DNA of 64,000 bases, from positions 558,001-622,000 of the forward strand of contig NZ_VYQF01000001.1 of the NCBI RefSeq assembly GCF_008710285.1, in the 5' to 3' direction. The notes under the pieces are model-generated. The model was not told the origin of the DNA and searched no databases. It saw only the letters and a program-made list of their open reading frames with translations. A program made the translations under genes and the position numbers. Shown here one piece after another: positions 27,796-36,894 of this stretch; within the stretch, counting starts at the first letter, position 1, and every line of letters begins with the position of its first letter. Source of the DNA: Ginsengibacter hankyongi. Its GTDB lineage: Bacteria; Bacteroidota; Bacteroidia; Chitinophagales; Chitinophagaceae.

Positions 27796-28254
27796 TCAAG
27801 ATTTAGCTTCTTTTTTTTCCATCTCTGTTTTTATTGCAGCTGCTTTTTCAGCAGCCAGCCTTTTCTTTTCGGCCGCATAAGCCGCTCGGCTCATTAAGGC
27901 TTCACCATACAAAATATTCCATCCGTTGTTTATATTTTCTTCTTTCAATGCACATTTTGCAGGGACATTGGTTTGAAAGATGGCGCCTTCCTTCGGACAT
28001 GCACGAACACATTCTGAACAATAAATACAAACGGCCCGGTTAAAATGATAAGTCTGCTTTCCATCCATAGCCTGCGAAAAAACAATAGCGCCCGGGGGGC
28101 AAGCCATTTCACACCGGCGACACCAGATGCACAAGTTTTCATTAAAACCAATCATTCCCCTGTAATCATCCGGTATAAAAGTTTGTTCAAACGGGTATTT
28201 AATTGTAACCGGCTTCTTAAATAAATTCAGGATCGCTTTAAAAAATGTTTTCAT
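27796..28254 (-). CDS. echF: Ech-type hydrogenase ferredoxin-like subunit EchF (NuoI-like)
   Basis: This polyferredoxin carries two [4Fe-4S] clusters, CIWCRRCEMACPPG and CIYCSECVRACPKEG, as in NuoI/EchF. In Ech enzymes this subunit takes electrons from soluble ferredoxin. I start at the ATG at 28254 (MKTFFKAILNLFKKPVTIKYP), which resembles the membrane-facing N-terminus of the family and leaves a 14-bp gap to echE; upstream ATGs up to 28293 would overlap echE. The product is 152 residues. The C-terminal 40 residues are highly charged and Ala/Lys/Glu-rich, probably helical, beyond the usual EchF end. It is the last gene of the six-gene operon and converges on araR. Confidence 0.93.
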   Translation of the reverse strand: MKTFFKAILNLFKKPVTIKYPFEQTFIPDDYRGMIGFNENLCIWCRRCEMACPPGAIVFSQAMDGKQTYHFNRAVCIYCSECVRACPKEGAIFQTNVPAKCALKEENINNGWNILYGEALMSRAAYAAEKKRLAAEKAAAIKTEMEKKEAKS

Positions 28255-28268
28255 CGTAAAATATTTAA

Positions 28269-29357
28269 TCATCTTGATGTACATGAAAGGCATGGATCAT
28301 AAGATGCAATAATAGCAGGAGCGCTCCCATACTCATTCCCTTTAAATGCTTCTACCATGGCAGGGATATTAGAAAATGTGGGCGCTTTAATTTTTAAACG
28401 TTCCAGTATTTGCGTCTTGTTTCCTTTAGCATAATAAAATAATTCGCCGCGTGGAGCCTCAAGTCTTGCAACCGCTTCACCATCAGGAAACGTTTTTGTT
28501 TCCGTAACAAGTGCCGATTCAGGTAACCCGTTTATAATATTTTCAATGATTCGCATTGATACATACAATTCACGCAAACGAACCATGTTGCGGGCATGAA
28601 CATCTCCTGCTTTATCTAACACCATTTCAAAACCAACTTCTTTCCACGGTAGCAGATCGTCGTATTCATTGCGAACATCAGCTGCAAGCCCCGTTGCTCT
28701 CGCAAAAGGGCCAACCACATTCAGTCTCAAAGCGTCTTCTTTTGTAATGAGTCCAACACCTTTGTTCTTTAAAGATAATGTCCAGTTATTTTGATAGATG
28801 TCAACCAGTTCATCTAATTGTGGTTTAAAAATTTTCAATCGTTCTAAAATCATTTTACCAACTTCCGGTTTTAAGTCCCGGGCAACTCCACCCACTATTG
28901 AAAAATCATATTGAATACGATTGCCGCACACCGCCTCAAGCAGTTCCATAGCAAACTCACGATATTGCATTGTTTTCATAAACAGAGCTTCAAAGCCCGA
29001 GTTTTCCGCCACATGACTTAAGCATAATAAATGCGAATGGATTCTATCCAATTCAATAACAAGCATTCTAAGATATTTGGCACGACGTGGAACTTCAATT
29101 TTAATTAATTTCTCCGCTACCTGCGAGTAGGCGGTTGTATGCGATACGGAACACAAGCCACAAACACGGCCTACGACAAAACTCACCTGGCGGAATTTAA
29201 ACTTTGAACAACACGCCTGCTCTATTCCGCGGTGTACATAATATACATTGGCAACTGTATCAACAATTTTTTCGTTTTCTGTTGTAAACTTAAAATGAAG
29301 AGGTTCTAGTAATGAAATATGCTGTGCGCCTAAAGGTATCTCGTATTGTTTTCCCAT
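28269..29357 (-). CDS. echE: Ech-type [NiFe]-hydrogenase catalytic large subunit EchE (NuoD-like)
   Basis: This subunit holds the NiFe active site. All four nickel-binding cysteines are present: C66 and C69 in GRVCGLCSVSH, and C356 and C359 in SYDPCLSCTSR. The motifs show a true hydrogenase and not a complex I subunit. The protein has 362 residues and ends exactly at the DPCxxCxxR motif, so there is no C-terminal extension to be cut off; the same is known for some group 4 enzymes such as CooH. A maturation endopeptidase should therefore not be needed for this enzyme. The gene is 3 bp from echD. Confidence 0.95.
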   Translation of the reverse strand: MGKQYEIPLGAQHISLLEPLHFKFTTENEKIVDTVANVYYVHRGIEQACCSKFKFRQVSFVVGRVCGLCSVSHTTAYSQVAEKLIKIEVPRRAKYLRMLVIELDRIHSHLLCLSHVAENSGFEALFMKTMQYREFAMELLEAVCGNRIQYDFSIVGGVARDLKPEVGKMILERLKIFKPQLDELVDIYQNNWTLSLKNKGVGLITKEDALRLNVVGPFARATGLAADVRNEYDDLLPWKEVGFEMVLDKAGDVHARNMVRLRELYVSMRIIENIINGLPESALVTETKTFPDGEAVARLEAPRGELFYYAKGNKTQILERLKIKAPTFSNIPAMVEAFKGNEYGSAPAIIASYDPCLSCTSR

Positions 29358-29360
29358 AAC

Positions 29361-29702
29361 TTATTTTTTCTTTCTTAAAGGACCACTTTCAAAATCAGGT
29401 TCCAATACAAAACCTTTTGCTGTATTTTGAATTTTAATATTCATCAGATCCACCAGTTCTGCTTCAGCTACCCACGAAGATTCAACAATATCCCTGATAG
29501 ATGGTATTTCCTCATCTGGATTAATCTGAACACAAAAAGCAATAATATTTGATGGGTTAGCATACTCGCAAAAAAACCATTGCACTTCAATTTTTTCTCC
29601 GAGGTCAACCGCATTGATAACCACAAAATGGTACAAATCCGGCTTGTAAAAATTACGGATGTCGTCTTTTACTTTATCAATTGATGTTTCAATTCTATTC
29701 AT
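29361..29702 (-). CDS. echD: Ech-type hydrogenase subunit EchD (NuoC-like)
   Basis: The 113-residue protein has the beta-rich core of the 30-kDa/NuoC family in short form: YHFVVINAVDLGEKIEVQWFF, then the motif IPSIRDIVESSWVAEAELVDLMNI, which corresponds to the conserved IPS..DI...W.E.E..D..GI of NuoC. It has no cofactor. In Ech it is a structural partner of the large subunit. Identification rests mainly on this motif and on its place between echC and echE (3 bp from each). The C-terminal tail GPLRKKK is basic. Confidence 0.88.
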   Translation of the reverse strand: MNRIETSIDKVKDDIRNFYKPDLYHFVVINAVDLGEKIEVQWFFCEYANPSNIIAFCVQINPDEEIPSIRDIVESSWVAEAELVDLMNIKIQNTAKGFVLEPDFESGPLRKKK

Positions 29703-29705
29703 GGA

Positions 29706-30227
29706 CTATGCAATTTCTTTAATTTCAGCAGCAATATCTCTCCTGTTCAACTGGGTATCTTCTTTTACAGGTTCTTTTTTTAATCGTATAGATTGTTCTA
29801 AATCCTTTGTTTTCTTCTCCAATATCGCAAGCGCTTCTATTACGCCATCAATAATCTGCTCCGGCCGGCTTCCGCATCCGCACACATATACATCCACCGG
29901 GATGTATTGATCTATCCCACCTTCACAATTATACATTCCCCTGAAAACACCGCCGGTACAGGCGCAGGCTCCACAACTAACTACAACCTTCGGTTCAGGC
30001 ATTTGCGCATAAATTTCGACTAACCTTTCACGTGAGCGTTTTGTAACGGGACCGGTTACCAGCAAAACATCTGATTGTTTTGGATTGCCGGTATTGATTA
30101 TACCAAAACGTTCTATGTCATATTTGGGAGCCAAACAGGCAAGTATTTCTATATCGCAACCATTGCAACTGCCTGCATTGTAATGCAGTATCCATGGCGA
30201 TTTTTTTCTAAAAGAATTTAATTTCAT
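29706..30227 (-). CDS. echC: Ech-type hydrogenase small subunit EchC (NuoB-like)
   Basis: This subunit carries the proximal [4Fe-4S] cluster (N2 equivalent) next to the NiFe site. The ligands are C21 and C24 (GSCNGCDIE), C88 (CGACACTGG) and C118 (VCGCGSRPEQI). The protein is 173 residues. The C-terminal 40 residues (from about LEKKTKDLEQ) are charged, probably coiled coil, and extend beyond the usual fold. The ATG overlaps the end of echB by 4 bp (ATGA type), showing tight translational coupling. Confidence 0.94.
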   Translation of the reverse strand: MKLNSFRKKSPWILHYNAGSCNGCDIEILACLAPKYDIERFGIINTGNPKQSDVLLVTGPVTKRSRERLVEIYAQMPEPKVVVSCGACACTGGVFRGMYNCEGGIDQYIPVDVYVCGCGSRPEQIIDGVIEALAILEKKTKDLEQSIRLKKEPVKEDTQLNRRDIAAEIKEIA

Positions 30228-31072
30228 AACTGCAGAAATAGAATGGTTATTAATAAATTAATGAAAGCAATGGGCAAAGCCACTACCAATGAAAATTTAA
30301 GCATCTGCTTATAATTTACTCTCGCTGAAGAATTATCAAGCCCATTAATAAAGAGAAAAACAAACAACACCAGGCCCATTCCCAACAAAGGATCATTAGC
30401 GCCGAAAAGATATGCCAATGTGTAGCAAAACACGCAATCCAGCCATTTAGCAATGTAAATCGCTTCATAAAAAATTCCGGAAAATTCAAGTTCAACACCG
30501 CCGGTAATCTCCTGGTGCCCTTCGGCAATATCAAACGGGGATTTTTTTAGTTTGATAGGCAACACCATCAATAATGCCACAAAAGCCAGTGGCATCTTGA
30601 ATAACAGAGACGCGCCATAATTGAAAATGGAAGACGTATCAAAACTGCCAGTAAGCATAAAGGCAGAGACAGCAATTAATATTAAAACGGGTTCATAACA
30701 GAGAATGCTAATCGCAGTTCTGTTTGCCCCAAGATGACTAAAGATGGAGCGTGTGCTATACCCCGCCAAAATCAATAACGAGGTAGACAAAAGATGTAAA
30801 AAAATAACGAGGATTAAATCTCCTCCAAGTAATAAAACAGCCAGGGCAAACCATAAAGAAACAAAATGCATAATGCCCAGGAATGCATGTGTTGAATGAA
30901 CAATCATCTTTCGTTTATCAGCGAGCTTTAAAAAATCGTAAAAGGGCTGCAACAGCGGCGGGCCAGTTCTTCTTTGCATACGAGCTTTAACGATTCTTTC
31001 GAAACCATAAACCAGGCCGCCTATAGCCGGGGCAAGGAGTATTAATAAAACCGGGATTAAAATATCTTTCAT
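30224..31072 (-). CDS. echB: Ech-type hydrogenase membrane subunit EchB (NuoH-like)
   Basis: The 282-residue integral membrane protein has about eight helices and anchors the hydrogenase module to the antiporter-like subunit. NuoH-family hallmarks are visible: GLVYGFERIVKARMQRRTGPP near the N-terminus (the family has E/R plus RxGP), LLQPFYDFLKL, and the loop KSPFDIAEGHQEITGGVELEFSG with the conserved acidic residues that link quinone- or hydrogenase-side charge to the membrane arm. It follows echA by 47 bp and overlaps echC by 4 bp. Confidence 0.95.
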   Translation of the reverse strand: MKDILIPVLLILLAPAIGGLVYGFERIVKARMQRRTGPPLLQPFYDFLKLADKRKMIVHSTHAFLGIMHFVSLWFALAVLLLGGDLILVIFLHLLSTSLLILAGYSTRSIFSHLGANRTAISILCYEPVLILIAVSAFMLTGSFDTSSIFNYGASLLFKMPLAFVALLMVLPIKLKKSPFDIAEGHQEITGGVELEFSGIFYEAIYIAKWLDCVFCYTLAYLFGANDPLLGMGLVLFVFLFINGLDNSSARVNYKQMLKFSLVVALPIAFINLLITILFLQL

Positions 31073-31119
31073 TATAATTTTTTCAGCCTTCTTAATTTTT
31101 ATTCATCTTATACATTTCA

Positions 31120-32985
31120 TTATAATATTGACACTACAATCAGTGTAATAAAAAATAAAATACCTATTACAGAAAAATAAGGTGTAGCCCTATCGGTAGC
31201 AAAATAGAATGATGAAAATGAATAGTTCGTTTTTTCGCCGCAGGCGTATTCCTTTACCCTGTCAACATTTTTAAAGCGTATAAACGTAGCCGTTATGATG
31301 GTTATCGGCAGCAGTAAAAAAGCAATCAGCAGCGGAACAACCGGCAACGCCATTGCCCCGACATGTAATTTCCATCCATAAATTGTTACTTCAATTGGCA
31401 AACTCAGCGTTTGAGAGGCAACCGGTACAAAATAATGGCTCATTAAAAACGGATAGCTTAAAACACTCAATATTATTAATCCCAACAAAATGGAGATAGT
31501 GGCGGAATACAAAGGCTTTGTTTTCTCAAACTTTACCCCATCATGATCTCCCGTTCGCGCAATTAAAAGACCAAGCACTTTAAAATATAATAAAGATAAA
31601 ATGGCGCCACCACAGGCTATAGCCACTATTACAAAAGCGCCAAGCATTTTTTGGTTGATAGCAAGGACGCCCAAAGATTCAATACCAAACCATTTTCCCA
31701 TAAAGGCACCAAACGGCGGAAGCAACAGCGACATAAACCCAATTGAAATTACCAATGAAGTGAAGGGTCCGGTTTCTGCCAACTTATCCATATCCGATGT
31801 TTGCTTAAAATGAAATATTCTTTCGAGTATGCCTGCATTTAAAAACAACATGCATTTTGATAAGCCATGAAAAAAAACGAGCGTTAACGCGGCAATTATG
31901 GTAACCGGCGTACCAACAGCGGCCATCATAATCATTAATGCAAGCAGGGCAATAGTTGAATGAGCCAGTATTCTTTTAAAATTATCTTGTGAAAGTGCAC
32001 CGATAGCTGCAGCCACAAATACAAACCCAGTCATTGCAATTACTACAGACGCAACAGGTGTTCCTTTTAACGCTGGCGATAATCGCAAAATGATGAAAGG
32101 AGCAATTTTTACCATAGTAGACGAATGCAATAATGCGCTAACCGGCGTGGGCGCTACCATTGCTCCTAACAACCATTTGCTGAACGGCATCTGCGCTCCT
32201 TTAACCAATGCAGCCACACATAATAATGCAAGTGGCAGCAAGATACCCGGTACTGATGAGTGCGCCAGCAAATTGCTGAATGTGGCTGTTCCATAACCGT
32301 TGTGTATTATAAAAAATATAGCGCCTAGAATAGCAAGTCCGCCAATTTGATTCATCCACAACGCAGTGAGCGCATTCTTACCTGAGATTTCATCTTTTCT
32401 AAACCCAATAAATAAGAAAGAAGCCAGGGTAGTTAATTCAAAAAACAGGAAGAAGCACTCCATGTTATCCGAAGAAACAATGATATTCATAACGGCAATG
32501 AACCAAAATAAGATTGACAAAAAATATTTTTTACGAAAGGCACTGCAATCTTCCCCATCAATGTATTGCAAAGAAAATATAGAGATGATGCCGCTGATAA
32601 CATTTATTAAAAGGAACATGAAGACGCTTAACTTGTCAACTGTAAACTGCGCCTGGTATTCTTCCGGAATAATTTTAAGGAGGTAGAGTAATGCCCCAAA
32701 TTGTAAAACAGTAAGCAGCCCAACAAGCCAGCTTTTTTTACGAATGGCTACACTTCCAAAATACAGAAGCAACAAAATATCCGCAACAGACACAACCTCA
32801 TTCATATAATGAGACACGCCGAAATGAAATGGTTCCTCTATACTTACCAGCAAATAAAATGATATAACAGATAAAATAGCAGCAGAAGCTATAACCAATA
32901 TCCGTGACAGGTTTTTAGGCAGTATCAGTACCAAAACGCTGACAGCAACCGGAAGTATAAACAGGCTAATTATAAGTGCATACAT
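31120..32985 (-). CDS. echA: Ech-type hydrogenase antiporter-like subunit EchA (NuoL/MrpA-like)
   Basis: This is the proton- or sodium-translocating subunit of the enzyme. The 621-residue protein has about 16 hydrophobic helices. It has the antiporter-core motifs: the conserved Glu region (MECFFLFFELTTLASFLFIG), the lysine helix (LVKGAQMPFSKWLLGAMVAPTPVSALLHSSTMVK) and the C-terminal part LPPFGAFMGKWFG. It is a single antiporter-like subunit, as in Ech, rather than the several of complex I. It is the first gene of the minus-strand echABCDEF set; its promoter must lie in the gap shared with hypC. Which ion moves cannot be read from the sequence. Confidence 0.94.
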   Translation of the reverse strand: MYALIISLFILPVAVSVLVLILPKNLSRILVIASAAILSVISFYLLVSIEEPFHFGVSHYMNEVVSVADILLLLYFGSVAIRKKSWLVGLLTVLQFGALLYLLKIIPEEYQAQFTVDKLSVFMFLLINVISGIISIFSLQYIDGEDCSAFRKKYFLSILFWFIAVMNIIVSSDNMECFFLFFELTTLASFLFIGFRKDEISGKNALTALWMNQIGGLAILGAIFFIIHNGYGTATFSNLLAHSSVPGILLPLALLCVAALVKGAQMPFSKWLLGAMVAPTPVSALLHSSTMVKIAPFIILRLSPALKGTPVASVVIAMTGFVFVAAAIGALSQDNFKRILAHSTIALLALMIMMAAVGTPVTIIAALTLVFFHGLSKCMLFLNAGILERIFHFKQTSDMDKLAETGPFTSLVISIGFMSLLLPPFGAFMGKWFGIESLGVLAINQKMLGAFVIVAIACGGAILSLLYFKVLGLLIARTGDHDGVKFEKTKPLYSATISILLGLIILSVLSYPFLMSHYFVPVASQTLSLPIEVTIYGWKLHVGAMALPVVPLLIAFLLLPITIITATFIRFKNVDRVKEYACGEKTNYSFSSFYFATDRATPYFSVIGILFFITLIVVSIL

Positions 32986-33345: not shown

Positions 33346-33627
33346 ATGTGTTTAGCAATACCCGGAAAAGTTATTTCGGTTGAATCGGAAGACCAGGAAA
33401 TATTCCGCACAGGAAAAGTTTCTTTCGGCGGAATTATAAAACAGGTAAACTTAAGTATGGTGCCCGGTATAAATGTTGGTGAGTATGTGTTGGTTCATGT
33501 AGGAGTAGCCGTTGGCAAAATAGACGAGCAGGAAGCGATGTTGACGCTGGAGTATCTTGAACAAATGGGAGAAATGAATGACCTCAGCTCCATTGAAGAA
33601 AAGAAAACAATTCAACAAATTTATTAG
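33346..33627 (+). CDS. hypC: Hydrogenase assembly chaperone HypC/HybG
   Basis: HypC carries the Fe(CN)2CO unit with HypD and delivers it to the immature large subunit. The 93-residue protein starts MCLAIPGKVI, with the essential Cys2 and the family signature, and contains the SFGGIIKQVNLSMVPG and GEYVLVHVGVAVGKIDEQEA blocks. The C-terminal 20 residues are an extra charged tail. It is the only hyp gene in the window and points opposite to both hydrogenase operons, so hypA, B, D, E and F must lie elsewhere. The first ATG is fixed by the need for Cys at position 2. Confidence 0.96.
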   Translation: MCLAIPGKVISVESEDQEIFRTGKVSFGGIIKQVNLSMVPGINVGEYVLVHVGVAVGKIDEQEAMLTLEYLEQMGEMNDLSSIEEKKTIQQIY

Positions 33628-33683: not shown

Positions 33684-34181
33684 TCAGACTATCAATTTAT
33701 TTTCGATAGTTGGCAAAAAGCTTTTCGTAAAAACTATAAATGCCGACTCCAGGTTTTCCCCTGCATTTCTACTTAAAGAAGTCTCTAATTCCCAAGAATA
33801 TCCGGCTATCGCCAGGGTGTAAGCTTTAGGATGCTTATTGTAAAGACTATTCGCCAGGTAAAGAATAGTTTCCGGACTTTGAATATGCGAAGAGAAAAAA
33901 TAATGATTAGCAGCAGTACATGATTTTATTTCAAAACCATCTTCCAATTCTATATGTGATGCATCTGCAAAAATAACTGTATCATACGCCGAGATTAGCA
34001 CCGCATCTTCTATTTGCAATTGATAGCGGTATTCGTAATCCATGAAATCAAAATTATAACGCTTAAGCATTTCCGTAATCTCCCACCCCAGCCCGTCATC
34101 GCCCCGGCCGCAGTTACCCATGCCAATAAATAAAATCTTGTTTGATCCGGAAGTTACCGGATCAATCCTTAAATCTTTCAT
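33684..34181 (-). CDS. hoxW: [NiFe]-hydrogenase maturation endopeptidase (HoxW-like)
   Basis: This endopeptidase clips the C-terminal extension of the hydrogenase large subunit after nickel insertion. The 165-residue protein has the family opening ILFIGMGNCGRGDDGLGWEI, where the Asp following GRG is a nickel-sensing ligand. It also has the second acidic site in TVIFADASHIE and a C-terminal AIAGYSWELETSLS region matching the conserved HxxG/GxxP-type segment only loosely. The gene overlaps hoxH by 20 bp, so it should be made together with its substrate. It converges on hypC with 56 bp between. Confidence 0.9.
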   Translation of the reverse strand: MKDLRIDPVTSGSNKILFIGMGNCGRGDDGLGWEITEMLKRYNFDFMDYEYRYQLQIEDAVLISAYDTVIFADASHIELEDGFEIKSCTAANHYFFSSHIQSPETILYLANSLYNKHPKAYTLAIAGYSWELETSLSRNAGENLESAFIVFTKSFLPTIENKLIV

Positions 34182-35625: not shown

Positions 35626-36894
35626 TTAATCATATTTAAATTCAGAATAAAGAATGGAATACTCTTCACCCCACAAAATATTTTTTATGCTTTTCCAAAT
35701 AATGTTCGCATCAGGCGGGCAACCCGGTATGTAATAATCTATCTTAACAATCTCATTACAGGCATAGACGCGGTCAAGAATCTTTGGCAGATCTTCATCA
35801 TAAGGAACAATATTGTTACCGGGTTCATTGGTAAGGCAATTAAGATACGCTTCATCAAGACACTCACCAAGTGGAATGGAATTTCTCAAAGTAGGGAGGC
35901 CGCCCCATATCGAACATTCACCTATTGCAACCAACACATCACAGTTTTCCCTGAATTTTCTAAGTGTTTCTATATTTTCATCATTGCAACAACCGCCTTC
36001 AATGATACCAAGATGACATCGGGTTGTAAAATTTTTAAAATCAGTTAAAGGTGATTTATCAAATGAAACCAATTCGATCAAATCAAGAAGCTCTGCATCT
36101 ATATCGAGCATGGACATGTGGCAGCCAAAGCAGCCAGCTAAAGAAACGGTTGCAATTCTTTTCTTAGTTATTTGAGATTCTTTATGTTTTGGTATTTCTT
36201 CACTATACTTTTTTTGTACAGATTGCATATCAAACTTTCTATTTCCAAATGGTTCAGCAATGCTTACTCCCCTAACTATGATAGCACCCGTTGGGCAAAT
36301 TTTCATTGCATTGATAGCTTGTTCTTCCGTTAATTTGGCTTCCTGTTCGTAATCAACTCCTACGTACGTTTCATTACCCCTGTTTTGATAAGTAAATACT
36401 TTTTTACCTTCATCAGTAACCACATCCACAACGCATCTAAGGCATTTAATGCAACGGTTATGTTCCATTACCATCCTGGTTGGTTGAAAGTCGATAATGC
36501 GGTCTTTAAATAAATGCTGAAAACGCGTAGACGCAATTCCCAATTCATATCCCATGTGTTGCAGATCGCAGTTGCCGCTTTTTTCACAGGCCGGGCAGAT
36601 ATGATTTCCTTCAGCAAACATCATTTCTACCAATGCCTTTCTTGTGTCTTTTAATTCCGGATCATTCACTTCAACTTTAAGCCCTTCGCTAACTTTTTCT
36701 GTACAGGCCGGCCCAAATTTTCCATTTATTTTACAAGTACACACCCTGCAGGTTCCCAATGGGGGTTCTATGTGTTCAAAATAACATAGCGATGGAATAA
36801 AAATGCCATTCTCTTTTGCAACCTGCATAAGATTTTTACCTTCTTCAACAAGAAAATTTTTACCATCTATCGTGATATTAACCTTGCTTGCCAT
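35626..36894 (-). CDS. hoxUY: Fused HoxU-HoxY: diaphorase iron-sulfur subunit joined to hydrogenase small subunit
   Basis: One uninterrupted 422-residue frame contains two normally separate proteins. Residues 1-235 are HoxU (NuoG-like): [2Fe-2S] ligands C37, C49, C52 and C64; the His/Cys cluster H98, C100, C103 and C109; and [4Fe-4S] C148, C151, C154 and C200. After a lysine-rich linker (about 228-245), residues 246-422 are HoxY, the hydrogenase small subunit, with C255 and C258 (AGCFGC), C327 (GECSIWGG) and C392 (PGCPPD) for the proximal cluster. All expected ligands are present, so both halves look functional. The fusion fixes a 1:1 path from diaphorase to NiFe site. It lies 3 bp from hoxF and 12 bp from hoxH. 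Confidence 0.94.
   Translation of the reverse strand: MASKVNITIDGKNFLVEEGKNLMQVAKENGIFIPSLCYFEHIEPPLGTCRVCTCKINGKFGPACTEKVSEGLKVEVNDPELKDTRKALVEMMFAEGNHICPACEKSGNCDLQHMGYELGIASTRFQHLFKDRIIDFQPTRMVMEHNRCIKCLRCVVDVVTDEGKKVFTYQNRGNETYVGVDYEQEAKLTEEQAINAMKICPTGAIIVRGVSIAEPFGNRKFDMQSVQKKYSEEIPKHKESQITKKRIATVSLAGCFGCHMSMLDIDAELLDLIELVSFDKSPLTDFKNFTTRCHLGIIEGGCCNDENIETLRKFRENCDVLVAIGECSIWGGLPTLRNSIPLGECLDEAYLNCLTNEPGNNIVPYDEDLPKILDRVYACNEIVKIDYYIPGCPPDANIIWKSIKNILWGEEYSILYSEFKYD

Follow-up and report, generated by a model that had tools for sequence, protein, structure and literature searches.

The locus at 35626-36894 raises the question of whether HoxU and HoxY, two subunits of the group 3d [NiFe] hydrogenases, are encoded here as one polypeptide, and what such a union would mean for the enzyme. 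The locus lies within a 64,000-nucleotide stretch of Ginsengibacter hankyongi DNA, which is referred to below as the window.

The hoxUY gene and the class of its hydrogenase

On the minus strand, these positions form a single open frame of 422 codons, with HoxU at residues ~1-222 and HoxY at residues ~246-422; the plus strand is interrupted by stops. Pfam places Fer2_4 at residues 3-77, NADH-G_4Fe-4S_3 at 85-123, Fer4_Nqo3 at 143-205 and Oxidored_q6 at 255-404 of the product. The domains of both subunits thus occur in one frame, as the sequence-only reading had proposed, and the product of about 47 kDa that it expected agrees with the computed mass. The NCBIfam HoxU model matches residues 5-221 with 176 bits, which is under the model cut-off of 333. 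By comparison with solved structures, the HoxU half strongly matches HoxU of the Hydrogenophilus enzyme 5xf9 (2e-34), and the best match of the HoxY half is 5xf9_C, the HoxY of this NAD-reducing hydrogenase (5e-51); no PDB chain spanning both halves was found among the matches listed.

The cluster ligands of both subunits are retained. In HoxU these are C37, C49, C52 and C64; H98, C100, C103 and C109; and C148, C151, C154 and C200. In an alignment of 47 homologues, all 12 of these residues and all four HoxY ligands (C255, C258, C327 and C392) are invariant, so that every ligand listed in the earlier reading is accounted for. Redundancy of the fusion through a separate HoxU or HoxY copy was also considered and rejected: the search of the organism's own genome found no second HoxU or HoxY, and its only other match was a NuoG-like protein (5e-19).

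The genes on the minus strand are arranged in the order hoxF, hoxUY, hoxH and maturation protease, with hypC on the opposite strand (Table 1). The best PDB match of HoxH is 5xf9_D, the Hydrogenophilus large subunit (E 2e-156). Several features of group 3d are present, namely the four NiFe Cys ligands of HoxH in the CGIC and CLSC motifs, a HoxY with four proximal-cluster Cys residues, and a NuoEF/G-like diaphorase (HoxF and HoxU) encoded alongside. Where described group 3d members have HoxU and HoxY as separate subunits, a single frame is present here and likewise in 87 homologues. Membership of group 3d rests on the large subunit HoxH, and the fusion is treated here as a variant architecture within group 3d, separate subunits not being taken as a class criterion. 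From homology, we infer that the window operon encodes a HoxFUYH-type H2:NAD+ oxidoreductase.

Table 1. Positions of the hox genes, the parts of HoxUY and the associated maturation genes in the window
Feature	Coordinates	Strand	Properties and evidence
hoxF, 587 aa	36898..38661	-	NuoE-like N-terminal domain + NuoF (FMN/NAD, 4Fe-4S); domain searches
hoxUY fusion gene	35626..36894	-	422 aa, 47.6 kDa; open frame, domain searches, ligand alignment
HoxU half, residues 1-221	36232..36894	-	[2Fe-2S] and two [4Fe-4S] ligand sets
Linker, residues 223-246	36157..36228	-	24 aa, K/E/P-rich; AlphaFold confidence low at 227-240
HoxY half, residues 247-422	35629..36156	-	proximal [4Fe-4S] ligands C255, C258, C327, C392
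hoxH, [NiFe] large subunit, 483 aa	34162..35613	-	C-terminal motif DPCLSCATQ
HoxW-type maturation endopeptidase	33684..34181	-	overlaps hoxH by 20 bp; TIGR00072 just under cut-off
hypC maturation chaperone	33346..33627	+	domain searches

HoxH deviates from its class at one position. The maturation cleavage site of the large subunit follows the rule DPCxxCxxH/R (PMC2670836), whereas residues 450-458 of the window HoxH read DPCLSCATQ, with Gln in place of His/Arg. The same motif is present in 48 aligned HoxH loci, the window included, and all of them belong to one subclade of the fused enzymes; the other fused enzymes, like every unfused group 3d enzyme tested, have a motif that ends in His. On a HoxH tree built without the Gln/His residue and the tail, the Gln motif requires two changes, the best reading being a single gain plus a single reversal (in L053) inside the fused clade. 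Because some other members of the fused clade have DPCxxCxxH/R, the Gln motif leaves group 3d membership intact.

Among known systems, the soluble hydrogenase (SH) of Cupriavidus necator H16 (HoxFUYHWI, group 3d) shares with the window operon its subunits and the order hoxF-hoxU-hoxY-hoxH-protease. On the other hand, its HoxU and HoxY are encoded by two genes, whose products are ~47-48% identical to the fused halves; its HoxH ends in DPCLSCATH; and no counterpart of its downstream hoxI, a gene with a cyclic nucleotide-binding domain, was noted next to the window operon. In the Hydrogenophilus thermoluteolus enzyme (5xf9), which gives the best or strong matches to the window HoxY, HoxU and HoxH, HoxU and HoxY are distinct chains of 242 and 189 residues. 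The bidirectional NAD(P) enzyme of cyanobacteria, HoxEFUYH, has HoxU and HoxY homologous to those of the window but is more distant, and it has separate hoxU and hoxY genes, with a spacing of 141 bp in Acaryochloris. The earlier statement that the two subunits are separate in known group 3d enzymes is thus supported by the two C. necator genes and by the solved structures listed. A complex I-type diaphorase part is also joined to a hydrogenase in one chain in [FeFe] HydA with a NuoG-like N-terminus, and the [FeFe] hydrogenase of Nyctotherus ovalis is fused to NADH dehydrogenase-like modules (PMC2216082). However, these fusions belong to a different catalytic class with an H-cluster, whereas the fusion partner in the window is a [NiFe] small subunit.

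Distribution and origin of the fused gene

A scan of GTDB species genomes yielded 80 loci, taken as the best 80 of 140 candidates, a selection that favours full-length matches; all of them align along practically the whole fusion. Bacteroidota sensu lato account for nearly all of them (Chitinophagaceae, Cyclobacteriaceae, Saprospiraceae, Flavobacteriaceae, Balneolota and Rhodothermota). With whole-genome matches added, the fused loci number 87, a few species being counted twice, and three named isolates, Robiginitalea marina, Yeosuana marina and Maribacter arenosus, are included. The search for the same fusion in other genomes that had been suggested at the outset was therefore productive, and the stop or frame change between the halves that would have spoken against a fusion is absent from all 87. 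That 87 loci, taken from numerous independent assemblies and including isolates, show an identical join already refutes a sequencing or assembly artefact that joined two genes, the chance of which is practically nil. In every fused locus with enough flank, hoxF lies upstream and hoxH downstream of hoxUY.

In a less biased sample of 395 genomes drawn evenly from Bacteroidota, the full-length fusion occurs in 7, and solely unfused relatives occur in 6 (E <= 1e-40). Among 398 Pseudomonadota and 237 Myxococcota genomes, the fused form was found only in the seed metagenome-assembled genomes (MAGs) titled Lysobacterales and Polyangia; these aside, the genomes with a Hox-type match have separate hoxU and hoxY. 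The reading that the fusion is unique to this genome is therefore rejected; it is the rule in one Bacteroidota-centred clade. The fused operon is also present in three MAGs titled Planctomycetaceae, Lysobacterales and Polyangia (L066, L081 and L088, respectively). L066 and L088 group together in the tree of HoxU plus HoxY (SH-aLRT 99), which suggests transfer or a binning error, and the fused operons of all three may be transfers or binning errors.

The fused form constitutes one clade, with SH-aLRT support of 100 for HoxU plus HoxY, 98 for HoxU, 98 for HoxY and 95 for HoxH. All sampled unfused enzymes fall outside this clade in the HoxU, HoxY and HoxH trees, and one change explains the fused state in each of these and in the combined HoxU and HoxY tree. 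Several independent fusions are unsupported, as every tree needs one change; the pattern looks like a single ancient fusion. The C. necator SH adjoins the fused clade in the HoxU and HoxY trees with support of 95. Since these are quick trees in which C. necator and a few other rows sit on long branches, this sister position is less secure than the fused clade itself.

The arrangement of the genes in unfused relatives suggests how the fusion may have come about. The hoxU and hoxY genes of C. necator share a 4-bp overlap, as do those of Lichenicola, and in three Myxococcota (L132-L134), a single stop separates two genes that are otherwise in frame. This implies that the step to fusion is small. 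Probably, the ancestral hoxU and hoxY genes were neighbours or overlapped, in a C. necator-like arrangement, and the fusion would have arisen once and then been kept across Bacteroidota. By eye, the HoxU end in the window (RKFDMQSVQ) is similar to the tail of HoxU in C. necator (RRKYEIQSVR), and the linker therefore seems to consist of the old HoxU tail and part of an old N-terminal extension of HoxY. No fission inside the fused clade was seen in the 87 loci, at identities down to ~58%.

The enzyme class is already known in this phylum from its large subunit: HydDB holds a Bacteroidetes group 3d large subunit from Phaeodactylibacter xiamenensis (PMC5037454), and three Phaeodactylibacter MAGs (L051, L056 and L061) fall in the fused clade. 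A description of the HoxU-HoxY fusion was not found in the open PMC papers, the literature searched, and the fusion is apparently undescribed. The wide prior record that would have weighed against novelty thus exists as sequences widely deposited in databases and not as a description in open papers.

The linker and the likely effect of the fusion

Between members, residues 223-243 of the linker show a mean identity of 15%, compared with 67% for HoxU and 72% for HoxY. Its length is nevertheless nearly constant, at 23-30 aa in 84 of 85 loci, the single outlier having 51 residues with N/D/G repeats. The sequence-only reading had described the linker as Lys/Glu-rich; over all homologues this holds (K 20%, E 8%), and proline is to be added (P 8%). 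AlphaFold confidence is below 50 at residues 227-240, in a model of moderate quality overall (mean pLDDT 68, pTM 0.50). Based on its low identity, near-constant length and low model confidence, the linker of ~25 residues looks like a flexible, disordered tether.

The explanation that we consider likely as a whole is that HoxUY is part of a group 3d H2:NAD+ enzyme, that it goes back to one fusion, and that this fusion has a stabilising or assembly effect. Electrons would pass from FMN in HoxF through the Fe-S chain of HoxF and HoxU to the proximal [4Fe-4S] cluster of HoxY and the [NiFe] site of HoxH, or in the opposite direction, and the joint between the two modules would be covalent through the disordered linker. 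The most likely effect would be that relay and small subunit assemble at a fixed 1:1 ratio and that the diaphorase side is lost less readily; a retained diaphorase would also limit superoxide from detached diaphorase. Such a stabilising role is reasonable because unfused enzymes dissociate, cyanobacterial HoxEFUYH, including that of Synechocystis, readily splitting into HoxEFU and HoxYH (PMC7363133), and because separated HoxFU, the diaphorase of C. necator, makes ~10x the superoxide of the holoenzyme (PMC3189943). By analogy with these enzymes, it is plausible that the fusion prevents dissociation of the modules. To say that the diaphorase is thereby locked to the hydrogenase, as the earlier reading did, goes too far: HoxF still binds HoxU, and HoxY still binds HoxH, through non-covalent contacts, at which the complex could part.

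Other effects have to be weighed against this stabilising or assembly role. The fusion may be real and functionally neutral, a stop or frame break having been lost once and descent alone having kept the join, with HoxU and HoxY acting as in unfused enzymes. The adjacent or overlapping genes of unfused relatives, one stop apart in the three Myxococcota, are in line with this reading, as are the unconstrained linker sequence and the single origin, which gives no sign of repeated selection; however, the lack of fission in 87 loci and the narrow range of linker lengths point the other way, and we regard neutrality as a real possibility that falls short of even chances. Alternatively, the main benefit could lie in co-translational assembly and stoichiometry during maturation rather than in resistance of the finished enzyme to dissociation. 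HoxY has to come together with both matured HoxH and the relay at 1:1, a ratio that the fusion enforces, and many members carry the unusual HoxH maturation site in the same operon; yet the operon of unfused enzymes already couples the genes tightly, and assembly as the main benefit appears somewhat unlikely.

It is also conceivable that cleavage of the linker, or an internal start of HoxY, gives separate working subunits as in other enzymes. The linker is disordered and charged, a possible start codon is found in 63 of 85 linkers, often as a Met just ahead of the HoxY fold, and the window linker has an in-frame ATG at codon 223. Against this, ATG, GTG and TTG are all missing from 22 of 85 linkers, which makes a separate HoxY start at a common start codon impossible there, the Met positions are unconserved, and in the alignment of 47 homologues no protease motif stands out as conserved within the linker. 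We therefore consider separate subunits very improbable. A more far-reaching reading would make the fused enzymes a subtype of their own among soluble NAD-linked hydrogenases, one whose HoxUY core does not dissociate and which includes a subclade with the Gln site; in Chitinophagaceae, it would act together with the adjacent group 4 membrane hydrogenase to cycle H2 between NADH and an ion-pumping complex. This reading seems improbable as well, if less so.

Neighbouring hydrogenases and implications of the fusion

Several other hydrogenase genes were observed beside the fused operons. Directly downstream of the hox operon in the window, at 27796-32985 on the minus strand, lies a cluster for a group 4-type membrane [NiFe] hydrogenase with NuoI-, NuoD-, NuoC-, NuoB-, NuoH- and NuoL/Mrp-like genes. 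Both Cys pairs are retained in its large subunit, which ends in DPCLSCTSR, and among solved structures Mbh and formate hydrogenlyase come closest. This pairing recurs in Chitinophagaceae loci, e.g. L018, L020, L023, L063 and L087. In L020, L021, L025 and L027, the fused operon is adjoined by a divergent second operon of hox type (locus start, minus strand), in which hoxU and hoxY are separate and whose HoxH, where the locus extends far enough to include it, is ~54-58% identical; L087 shows only the HoxF of this second operon. In the Flavobacteriaceae loci L089, L093, L094 and L095, a distant second [NiFe] large subunit (~22-33% identical, motif DPCxACA) is found upstream of the fused operon, at about position 640 on the minus strand.

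For annotation, the fusion is a useful marker, and a pipeline built on one model for HoxU and another for HoxY will assign a name to just one half of the fused protein. There is demand for soluble NAD-linked hydrogenases in cofactor recycling, and the unfused members are known to suffer from dissociation into diaphorase and hydrogenase parts. A natural fusion that persists throughout a broad group of bacteria makes it possible to ask directly whether joining HoxU to HoxY brings a gain in stability or a drop in superoxide leakage.
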